Shown in pieces: positions 2,623 to 60,910 of a stretch of DNA of 64,000 nt. The notes below the pieces were generated by a model. It was not told the DNA's origin. It did not search any database and saw nothing but the letters and a program-made list of their open reading frames with translations. A program made the translations under genes and the position numbers. This DNA is from Candidatus Kuenenia stuttgartensis (lineage in GTDB: Bacteria > Planctomycetota > Planctomycetia > Pirellulales > UBA1268): NCBI GenBank assembly GCA_945865325.1, contig CAMBFA010000003.1, forward strand, positions 1 through 64,000. Reading direction: 5' to 3'. Every line of letters starts with the position of its first letter. Position 1 is the stretch's first letter.

Positions 2623-2878
2623 GGGAGGGCGAGCGGGCCGGGGGCGGATGGATGAATCGATGGCCGGAGCCGGAGCCTGGGGCCGCCGTGCTCCCGCGGC
2701 GGCCGCGGACGTTGACATCCGCCACCGCTGCGGCCACCCTTGACGGTCTTCCGCGGAGCCCCGGAGCCCTTTCAAGGATACGACCGGCCGCCCGGAAAGG
2801 GAACGCCCGGCGGCTGGGCCGCCGGAGCGCATGATCAGGAATCGGGTTTTAGGTTCAACGTCCAGGAGCATCGAAGCA

Positions 2879-3448
2879 GTGGCAGGCTACAACACGAGCG
2901 AGTTCAAGAAGGGGCTCAAGGTCCAGATCGACGGCGACCCCTACCTCATGATCGAGTGCAATTTTGTGAAGCCGGGGAAAGGGCAAGCACTCTACAAGTG
3001 CAAGCTCCGCAACCTCCTCCGCGGCACGGTGCTCGACCGGACGTACAAGAGCGGCGATTCGCTCGATGCCGCCGACATCGCCACCATCGAGGCGCAGTTC
3101 CTCTACAAGCAGGGGGAACAGTTTGTCTTCATGGACAACACCAGCTACGAGCAGTACGAGCTGACGAAGGAGCAGGTCGACGACGCCTGGAAGTGGATCA
3201 AAGAGGGCACCGTCTGCTCGATGCTCCTCTACAACGGCAACCCGATCTCGATGGAGGCGCCGAACCACATGATTCTTCAAGTCGCGTATGCCGAACCGGC
3301 CATGCGCGGCAACACGGCGACGAACCTCACCAAGACGGTGAAGCTCGAGACCGGCGCCGACGTGGTCGTGCCGGCCTTCATCGAGCAGGACGACTTCATC
3401 AAGATCGACACCCGGACCGGCGATTACCTGGAGCGGTCGCAGAAATAA
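2879..3448 (+). CDS. efp: Translation elongation factor P (probable GTG start; ORF extends to ATG at 2831)
   Basis: 'YNTSEFKKGLKVQIDGDPYLMIECNFVKPGKGQALYKCKLRNLLRGTVLDRTYKSGD'; GTG at 2879 gives 189 aa, the canonical EF-P length. Confidence 0.95.
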   Translation: MAGYNTSEFKKGLKVQIDGDPYLMIECNFVKPGKGQALYKCKLRNLLRGTVLDRTYKSGDSLDAADIATIEAQFLYKQGEQFVFMDNTSYEQYELTKEQVDDAWKWIKEGTVCSMLLYNGNPISMEAPNHMILQVAYAEPAMRGNTATNLTKTVKLETGADVVVPAFIEQDDFIKIDTRTGDYLERSQK

Positions 3449-3467: not shown

Positions 3468-3524
3468 CGGAAAAAGGTGCCAGCCACCAATTGACCGACA
3501 AATGGTGGCAGGCACCTTTTTCCG
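3468..3524. repeat. Long imperfect hairpin (26-nt arms, 5-nt loop), REP-like
   Basis: cggaaaaaggtgccagccaccaattg / accga / caaatggtggcaggcacctttttccg; arms pair except two mismatches. Confidence 0.8.
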
Positions 3525-3540
3525 CACCCCAAACCGGCAA

Positions 3541-3681
3541 GCTCGGGGCTGACCGTGCCCCGAGAGCCGGCCTCGCCGGCAAGCGAAGCCCGGAGGGCGA
3601 AAGCGCAGGCGGCGCGGAGAGAGCGTCGGCCATGGATGGCCGACGTGAACGTCCGGCGACGGGGCACGGTCAGCCCCGAGC
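3541..3681. repeat. Structured intergenic element bounded by perfect 22-bp inverted repeats
   Basis: gctcggggctgaccgtgccccg (3541-3562) is the exact reverse complement of cggggcacggtcagccccgagc (3660-3681); interior hairpins gccggc-ctc-gccggc, gccc-gga-gggc, cgtcggccat-gg-atggccgacg. Confidence 0.85.
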
Positions 3682-3712
3682 GGAGCCCAAGCGAGAAGCG
3701 ATGAAACGACAA

Positions 3713-3750
3713 CGGCCCGCCGGAAACTCCGGCGGGCCGCTTCGTTTTTA
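3713..3750 (+). terminator. Intrinsic terminator-like hairpin between efp and the convergent 3772..5439 gene
   Basis: cggcccgccgga-aac-tccggcgggccg perfect 12-bp stem followed by cttcgttttta on + strand. Confidence 0.7.
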
Positions 3751-3771
3751 TCAACTGCAAGAAGCGATCGC

Positions 3772-5334
3772 TCAGTCCCACCACCACTGGCCGGCGGGGA
3801 GGTCGAGCTTCTCGCCTCGGGCGATGGCGATCGTGCCCTCGTCGTCGCCGAGGATGTTCGCGGGATCGAGGGCCAGCTTCGGCTGAACCGTCACGCCACC
3901 ACCGATCGGGGTGACGAGCCGGTTGCCACGCTGGATGGCGTTGATCGCCGGCTGGACCTCGGTCGGCGCGACGAGCCGCTCGATCGTGCAGATCGACTCG
4001 TCGCGGAGGCTCTCGGCCCCCCAGGCGGCCCGGCCGTAGGCGTCGTGCTCCTGCATCCAGGCGGCCACGATCGAGAGATCGATGAGGTTGCGGAGCTGGC
4101 CGTAGACCGGGTTGCGGGCGGCGATCTCGGGGTATTTCCGCGTGAACGTCTCGGTGAACGTCTTGCTTGCCCGGTCGGGCCGGTCGGCCGACATCCGCTG
4201 GCCGTTGGGGAGCACGACCTCATCGGCACCGACGAGCTTCACCCCCCGGCCGACAAGCTCGATGCCGAGGTCGTCGTCAGTCGCCCGCACGCACTGGTAG
4301 TCGGGGGTGAAGAACCAGCGCTGGAGGGCGTTGGTGGCGACGCTGGAATTGGCGTTGAGATCGACCCACGACTTCATGTTCCGGGCCGGCACGCGCTCGA
4401 GGCCAATCCCGATGAGCTTCATCCGGTAGTCGGCCTCGACCATCACCTGGGCGAAGTGCGTCATGGGGCTGACGCCGTCGACGCGGACATCCTGCGGCCC
4501 GAGGGCCTGCGTCATCCCCATCACGAGCTCTTCGGGACTGGCCTTGGGGTTGATCCGCCCGACGCTCTTGATAAACGCCTGAAGCTGGGCGAGCCCCTCC
4601 TGACGCGGATCGATCGAGCAGCCGATGGTGGCGCTGGTCGGCTCGCCCGGCTCGAAGACACGGATCGCGGCGACGAGATCCTCGAGGAGGACCGTCGGGC
4701 TGCCCGACTCGATCCCCACCACGCGCCCGGTGGCGTCGGTGATCCAGCCCTCGGCCGGGCCGGCGATGACGACTTCACCCGGCTGCCCATCCTCGGCCGG
4801 ATAGACAAACACATACTGCACGCGCGTCAGGCCGGCGAGCCGGACGACATCGTCGGCGATGTCACGCCCCTCGGCGGCAGCGCGGGCCACCTCGGCCTCG
4901 AGTCGCGACAGCGCCACCTTGCGGAACGTCGAACGCTTGCGAATGTCACCGGGCAACTCGGCGTAGGCGGCCACACGCCGCTGGCGGGAGAGCCCCGCAT
5001 CGGAGACGAAGCGCGTCCGCAGGACTCCCTGAGCGTCGATGACGACACCAGCCGCGCCCGCGGCGCTGCCCAATCCACCACCACCCCCCTGGCCACCACC
5101 CCCCTGGCCGCCGCCACCCATGCCGCCGCCACCCTGGCCGCCACCCATGCCGCCGCCGCCCTGACCACCACCCATGCCACCACCGCCACCCCCCATACCG
5201 CCGCCACCGATGCCACCCTGGGCATGGGCGAATCCGGCGGGTGCGACGGCCACGGCAAGAGCCACGATCGCCGTCGTCAACAGCGAGGCGAAGCGGTGGA
5301 CGAGGGTCATCCGGTCAGCGAGGGGCTTGGACAT
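3772..5334 (-). CDS. Secreted planctomycete protein with Gly/Met/Gln-rich tract, DUF1598-like
   Basis: Signal peptide 'LLTTAIVALAVAVAPAGFAHAQGG', then 'GGGMGGGGGGMGGGQGGGGMGGG...'; C-terminal body resembles DUF1598 from memory. Start 'MSKPLADRMTLVHRFAS' within ORF 3772..5439. Confidence 0.7.
   Translation of the reverse strand: MSKPLADRMTLVHRFASLLTTAIVALAVAVAPAGFAHAQGGIGGGGMGGGGGGMGGGQGGGGMGGGQGGGGMGGGGQGGGGQGGGGGLGSAAGAAGVVIDAQGVLRTRFVSDAGLSRQRRVAAYAELPGDIRKRSTFRKVALSRLEAEVARAAAEGRDIADDVVRLAGLTRVQYVFVYPAEDGQPGEVVIAGPAEGWITDATGRVVGIESGSPTVLLEDLVAAIRVFEPGEPTSATIGCSIDPRQEGLAQLQAFIKSVGRINPKASPEELVMGMTQALGPQDVRVDGVSPMTHFAQVMVEADYRMKLIGIGLERVPARNMKSWVDLNANSSVATNALQRWFFTPDYQCVRATDDDLGIELVGRGVKLVGADEVVLPNGQRMSADRPDRASKTFTETFTRKYPEIAARNPVYGQLRNLIDLSIVAAWMQEHDAYGRAAWGAESLRDESICTIERLVAPTEVQPAINAIQRGNRLVTPIGGGVTVQPKLALDPANILGDDEGTIAIARGEKLDLPAGQWWWD
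5070..5222. repeat. Low-complexity GGN-type coding repeat (Gly-rich tract)
   Basis: Repeated ccacc/gccgcc/acccatgccgcc units encoding GGGMGGGQGGGG on the minus strand. Confidence 0.85.
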
Positions 5335-5637
5335 GGTCGTACCCGGCGAAGGAGGAAAGGTCTGCCGACATTTGATTCCCGCAGGGCTCCGCAGACCGGA
5401 ACCTGTCCGCAGGGTACGCCCCGGCGAAGCTGACGGCAATCAAACGACCGGCGTGTAGGGAGCCTCCGCGTCGGCGGACTCGCCCCCAGTATCTCTTCTC
5501 TCTTCGGCCCGGAGACGACAACAGCTTTGAGGGGCTTGGGGGGAATGGCGGGCGATTCGCCGGTTTTCCCCCCCCGCCCTGCACCGGGGAGCGGTCGTGC
5601 CGGTTGTCGGGGAAGGTCTCTCCCGGCCGCTGTCGGC

Positions 5638-60616: not shown

Positions 60617-60836
60617 CCTTCACGCGAGGCCCGTCATCCCTGACGGCCTCGCTTGCGAACCTCCGGTTCGTGGCGCGCTCAGCCGGGCTCCAAGCCCGCG
60701 AACTTTTCAATGCGCCCGGCAGGACTCGAACCTGCAGGCACCCTTCACGCGAGGCCCGTCATCCCTGACGGCCTCGCTTGCGAACCTCCGGTTCGTGGCG
60801 CGCTCAGCCGGGCTCCAAGCCCGCGAACTTTTCTAG

Positions 60837-60861
<25 letters not shown>
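60617..60861. repeat. ~125-bp tandem direct repeat (two near-identical copies, 60617-60735 and 60742-60861), each ending in the 3' 24 nt of tRNA-Arg
   Basis: ccttcacgcgaggcccgtcatccctgacggcctcgcttgcgaacctccggttcgtggcgcgctcagccgggctccaagcccgcgaacttttc..tgcgcccggcaggactcgaacctgca occurs twice. Confidence 0.93.

Positions 60862-60910
<49 letters not shown>

Follow-up and report, generated by a model that had tools for sequence, protein, structure and literature searches.

Most interspersed repeats of bacteria are simple hairpins of small size. Those of the REP/BIME/REPIN type, which are RAYT-associated or CGTC-tagged, measure 20–40 bp, and ERIC/IRU, Correia and other small MITE-like elements are intergenic, multicopy sequences of 100–170 bp with terminal inverted repeats. 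The element described here has features of both. Like REPs, BIMEs and REPINs it is a dispersed, palindromic, non-coding repeat located mainly at gene 3′ ends, found in head-to-head pairs and with no target duplication seen, but it is 141 nt long and three-armed, it ends in GCGAGGGG/CCCCGAAGC and not in the GTAG/CGTC tag of REP/RAYT (REPIN) elements, and it lacks the linked RAYT that goes with these. It resembles ERIC/IRU and Correia in size, ends, intergenic location and copy number, and differs from their descriptions in its strand-specific covarying interior arms, in its GGA tips and in belonging to another phylum. A further likeness is to TwoAYGGAY RNA (RF01731) and the Csr/Rsm sRNAs, which also combine two hairpins carrying A(Y)GGAY-type loops with an internal loop of the tandem-GA type. 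CsrA binding has been proposed for the TwoAYGGAY and Bacillaceae-1 RNAs from paired hairpins of this sort (PMC4333381), and the C-A(N)GGAX-G loop is the high-affinity binding form for CsrA/RsmE (PMC4005645). Paired A(N)GGAX hairpins on a C-G closed stem, in a host that encodes CsrA, are traits that the element shares with Csr/Rsm-binding RNAs, whereas its many dispersed copies and its outer 22-bp palindromic stem set it apart from them, and in Rfam no family reached the gathering score, with only noise at E values up to 10. The description that suits it best is that of a variant among the interspersed mobile repeats of bacteria, one whose conserved fold is RNA-like.

Within the window (the whole 64,000-nt stretch of DNA that was analysed), one copy lies in a convergent intergenic region downstream of the gene for elongation factor P (EF-P; Table 1). 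The 22-bp inverted repeats noticed at its ends in the initial annotation are indeed perfect, and the element strand folds at -105.8 kcal/mol against -67.8 +/- 4.0 in dinucleotide shuffles (z = -9.4). No T-tract is found at the element's end; a terminator-like hairpin with TTTTT at 3711-3751 belongs to the EF-P locus itself. Two other features of the neighborhood may be recorded. A separate palindrome, AAAAAGGTGCCAGCCACCA..TGGTGGCAGGCACCTTTTT, occupies positions 3471-3523 of the same intergenic locus; it has no counterpart in the aligned pieces of genome G005, and its G002 version (L096) has additional sequence inserted in the loop. Inside the DUF1598 gene ARAGORN calls a tRNA-Ser at 3923-4007, which is probably a false positive because Rfam makes no such call.

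Table 1. Parts of the element and its flanking genes in the window
Feature	Position	Strand	Remarks
Whole element	3541..3681	+	One full copy of the ~14 in the source genome; + is the covariance-model strand
Left terminal inverted repeat, 5′ arm of outer stem P1 (GCTCGGGGCTGACCGTGCCCCG)	3541..3562	+	10 of 17 P1 pairs change on both sides
Right terminal inverted repeat, 3′ arm of P1 (CGGGGCACGGTCAGCCCCGAGC)	3660..3681	+	
Inner stem P1b, 5′ side GCCGG	3566..3570	+	Pairs with CCGGC near 3653-3657; nearly invariant; 95% of cells paired
Arm P2 (approximate limits)	3571..3618	+	Composite helix; near-invariant GNA/GRA internal loop; GGA tip, here GCCCGGAGGGC
Arm P3	3624..3646	+	Hairpin CGTCGGCC-ATGGAT-GGCCGACG; tip loop AUGGAU matches the Csr/Rsm hexaloop A(N)GGAX
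3′ junction strand GAACGTCCGGCGA	3647..3659	+	Strongly conserved (A2 columns 114-127); contains the P1b 3′ side
Upstream gene, elongation factor P	2831..3448	+	Pfam EFP_N, EFP, Elong-fact-P_C; stop codon 92 bases 5′ of the element
Downstream convergent gene, DUF1598 protein	3772..5439	-	Pfam PF07643

The search for further copies that had been proposed as a check on the initial annotation returned many, both in the source genome and in its relatives. BLAST detected about 14 near-full copies with 75–100% identity, plus several end fragments, in the source genome (a 4.42-Mb MAG in 298 contigs), and matches in every one of the 11 further genomes from the genus and in most genera of the host family; in a first BLAST sample of genomes from other families there was no match. 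A stringent pattern of 31 bases, taken from the element's right end, occurs in 57 of the 72 family genomes, with up to ~105 matches per genome; the reversed pattern, used as a control, gave zero matches. With a covariance model, 15 of the 118 sampled genomes of the order were found to carry the element, all 15 from the host family and among them genus g7, which the 31-base pattern had missed; no genome sampled outside the family had it. Copy number is high in genera g4, g8 and g12, and the element is missing from g2 and from most of g3. A comparison based on EF-P shows the close relatives to be planctomycete MAGs, many of them apparently of lake origin. In the open-access literature we found no description of this repeat, which is not proof of absence. 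The element is a previously uncatalogued non-coding interspersed repeat of ~141 bp, specific to one family and reaching ~100 copies per genome.

The conserved structure was derived from an alignment (A2) of 66 copies differing by more than 5%. It comprises outer stem P1, for which 17 pairs were counted, inner stem P1b (GCCGG/CCGGC) and two arms, the long P2 and the hairpin P3; across the 66 copies 95% of cells pair on it. Changes on both sides affect 26 of the 41 pairs, compared with 14.8 +/- 1.8 in shuffles that leave the relatedness of the copies in place, and include pairs of P1 (10/17), of the lower stem of P2 (8/8) and of P3 (5/6). Compensated cells number 264 against 70.6 +/- 10.5 after shuffling, and structures slid by 1–3 columns reach at most 53; these counts come from an alignment made by sequence and not fitted to structure, although the structure itself was derived from it. 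The sequence therefore changes in matched pairs, preserving a three-armed fold on one strand. Compensatory change, for which a statistical test had been called for, is accordingly strong among true copies of the element. The three local hairpins originally described can be drawn, but what is conserved is instead the long outer stem with two arms. The first of those hairpins (gccggc-ctc-gccggc) was rejected as a conserved pairing, none of its 6 pairs changing on both sides.

The two strands of the element are not equivalent. On the + strand G-U cells number 83 and A-C cells 10, the + strand is more stable than the - strand in all 66 copies (mean difference 10.6 kcal/mol), and the covariance model scores the window copy at 127.8 bits on + against 19.5 on -. 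The + strand is therefore probably the one under constraint, either as RNA or as single-stranded DNA. A C-to-T mutation bias could contribute part of the asymmetry, since unpaired columns also show C>T in 52 cells and G>A in 35.

Comparison of insertion sites points to mobility, with the reservation that all genomes compared are MAGs, so that copies at contig ends or swaps of flanks may be assembly artefacts. Two copies of the source genome, L005 and L006, and one of a congener, L241, share an identical sequence of 142 bp, and the DNA directly flanking them is unrelated; beyond the element only CACG, sometimes TTTGAGCC, continues. The EF-P locus contains the element in G000 and G006, internal-deletion remnants of it in G011 and G002, and none in G008. 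At a hemB-linked locus (the gene being named from sequence alone) seven congeners carry the element and the site is short in G009, G003 and G008, and locus L339 of G018 is filled where the orthologous site in G061 has almost no spacer. The short hemB site of G009 (CCTTCCCCGAGCGG) is explained equally well by a deletion between CCCCG repeats, and intergenic spacers diverge too fast for exact empty junctions, and hence the insertion point, to be fixed. The absence of a clear target-site duplication, remarked on earlier, was borne out: in 183 copies, flank repeats of 5–9 bp occur at chance level, a result that leaves room for a duplication of 2–4 bp. Neighboring copies not more than 150 bp apart are arranged head-to-head in 12 cases, in tandem in 5 and tail-to-tail in none.

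Several individual loci showed rearrangements. In G085, the copies L351, L352 and L353 form head-to-head pairs with a conserved spacer of ~35 bp (ACCCGAAGGAGATGA...CGGA) in a REPIN-like manner, and the end arms in this genome read GGCTTCGGG/CCCGAAGCC or GGCACGGGG/CCCCGTGCC, altered in concert. At L073 (G010) the element has been duplicated in tandem together with ~44 bp of flank. The flanks of L005, L006 and L245 are swapped between G000 and G004, which stems either from recombination between copies or from MAGs having been assembled chimerically where repeats of 142 bp are nearly identical. At the orthologous locus L403 (G061) the interior has undergone mosaic exchange: the element's outer stem here surrounds another module, arrayed stem-TCC-stem hairpins with GGA on the other strand.

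The distribution of copies relative to genes is strongly biased. According to a simple home-made codon-usage gene finder, and counting copies that are partly orthologous, the 155 copies with both neighbors known lie between convergent genes in 95 cases, tandem genes in 56 and divergent genes in 4, as against 28, 129 and 39 for other gene pairs of the same sequences (chi-square P ~1e-20, shared ancestry of the copies uncorrected). The median distance to a 3′ end is 73.5 bases. Avoidance of 5′ regions accounts for most of this bias. There is no preference for the sense orientation: in tandem contexts 32 copies run along the genes and 24 against them (P = 0.35), and in convergent contexts the element is antisense to the nearer gene in 64 of 95 cases. 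Orientation thus speaks against a simple role in cis for the upstream mRNA.

Taken together, these observations are most consistent with a REP/BIME-like or small-MITE non-autonomous mobile element with a conserved fold, acting or moving as a folded single strand, with CsrA binding as a less certain part; we assign this reading a probability of roughly 0.7. An enzyme acting in trans would copy the element via its folded + strand, as RNA or single-stranded DNA, and copies would survive mainly at sites where no gene is cut off from its promoter; where transcribed, their two conserved GGA tips might in addition, although this is less certain, bind the host's CsrA. The initial annotation had proposed a dispersed non-autonomous mobile-type element of RAYT type or a structured RNA, and its general terms agree with the copy number, the covariation, the presence or absence at orthologous loci and the identical copies in unrelated flanks.

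Mobilization by a RAYT, by contrast, is highly improbable, in spite of the REP-like head-to-head pairing and 3′ location (PMC3733652). The Y1 transposase (PF01797) is present in only 26 of the 72 family genomes and is missing from the source genome as well as from G082, a genome with ~100 copies, whereas G012 has four Y1 transposases and no element, so that copy number is unrelated to it. No element lies near any of the 30 RAYT loci in the family (best E 0.13), the GTAG tag is lacking and the element is 4–5 times as long as a REP. The linked RAYT/IS200-like transposase that was to be looked for is thus neither encoded in the source genome nor adjoining the element, and the RAYT part of the earlier reading is not supported. 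Across the 72 family genomes and the 30 loci covered for Y1 transposases, no mobilizing enzyme was found. That the element could be a classical MITE of a DDE insertion sequence is suggested by its ~22-bp terminal inverted repeats changing in concert, its small size and its many copies, but this too is disfavored and appears improbable: a target-site duplication of 5–9 bp does not rise above chance, all exact repeat ends in the source genome belong to 141-bp units or fragments and none to a longer coding element (no autonomous relative with the same ends was seen in this incomplete genome), and strand-asymmetric covariation of interior helices would not be expected if the element were recognized as duplex. 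It could also be that the repeat is a REP/BIME-like 3′-end element whose GC-rich outer stem stabilizes or terminates transcripts arriving from either side and which is selected at convergent ends. The strong 3′-3′ location, at the short median distance given above, and the ability of the palindromic P1 to form on both transcripts would fit such a role. It nevertheless seems unlikely to us, as the element is without a terminal T-tract and the EF-P locus has a terminator-like hairpin of its own, congeners have lost orthologous copies or show them in eroded form, and neither the asymmetric conserved interior nor the excess of G-U over A-C is needed for it.

A CsrA-related role deserves to be weighed separately. 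The GGA tip is kept in P2 in 64 of 66 copies, in P3 in 61 and in both in 60, and beneath these tips the stems vary in a compensatory manner. The canonical C-A(N)GGAX-G loop is formed by P3 in 48 copies and by P2 in 36, and at least one such loop is present in 63 of 66; in the window copy the P3 loop is canonical and the P2 loop is CGGAG. Every one of the 72 family genomes encodes CsrA, mostly with 2–5 matches each, and the source genome has three matches, one of them a normal CsrA beside fliW that matches solved CsrA/RsmE proteins. From the motif and the presence of the protein, binding of CsrA by the GGA tips of transcribed copies is putative, and less certain than mobility. By the same reasoning as was applied to the TwoAYGGAY and Bacillaceae-1 RNAs (PMC4333381), the element might even be primarily a CsrA-binding RNA module, in which the two loops would bind one CsrA dimer and the copies would serve as a CsrA sink or as marks of mRNA 3′ ends. 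As far as sequence goes this is possible, but we hold it only tentatively. It has to be set against the lack of sense bias in tandem contexts and the mostly antisense position relative to the nearer convergent gene, against the P2 loop of many copies from the genus to which the window belongs, which reads CGGAG and lacks the A, and against the fact that family genomes without the element also encode CsrA universally. Moreover, the remaining intergenic hairpins also have GGA/TCC as their most frequent loop (128/581 against ~35/400 in shuffles), again without sense bias, and a DNA-level reason for GGA loops is therefore possible. GNA loops are stable in DNA hairpins, and a general cause of this kind, for instance DNA hairpin stability, may be involved.

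The non-autonomous mobile element that we favor might, in a more speculative version that we regard as doubtful, carry a putative two-site CsrA-binding RNA module that has been seeded behind dozens of genes and that rewires or buffers a global post-transcriptional regulator family-wide. If true, a selfish repeat would be rewiring or buffering CsrA regulation in a whole bacterial family, in a phylum that appears to be without a catalogued Csr RNA (Rfam gave no match here). CsrA binding is the most testable proposal for the element's role. A large repeat family with a three-armed fold supported by covariation, apparently without the usual RAYT partner, raises the questions of what copies a structured single strand where a RAYT is absent and whether mobile repeats can serve as distributed CsrA sites.

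A second dispersed repeat of ~110 bp (TCGGCGGGGCCGGCAAAAGTTTCGTCGTTTCTCGGAGGACCTCGTCACTCCTCAAGCGTTCGCCGATCCCCGCC; L004:1640-1800) occurs at 16 places in the source genome, and often adjoins the element or has fragments of element ends at its flanks. The hairpins at 60617-60836 of the window, on the other hand, which had been taken for a related copy, could not be linked to the element: BLAST of this locus gave no match to it, a profile HMM with filters off matched the window only at 3541, and the covariance model matched it only at 3541-3682 (127.8 bits, E 4e-24); the 60.6-kb locus gave it no match at E values up to 10. What the two loci have in common is a short motif of ~25 nt, a stem-GGA-stem followed by AAGCG, and since they are otherwise unrelated the compensatory change proposed between them is unfounded. 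The region 60617-60862 consists of two perfect copies of a 92-nt hairpin cluster at a spacing of 125, for which BLAST found no other copies in the source genome. On the minus strand the final ~26-31 bases of tRNA-Arg(TCG) stand before each 92-nt copy, an arrangement that represents either a tandem duplication or the trace of an integration at a tRNA 3′ end.
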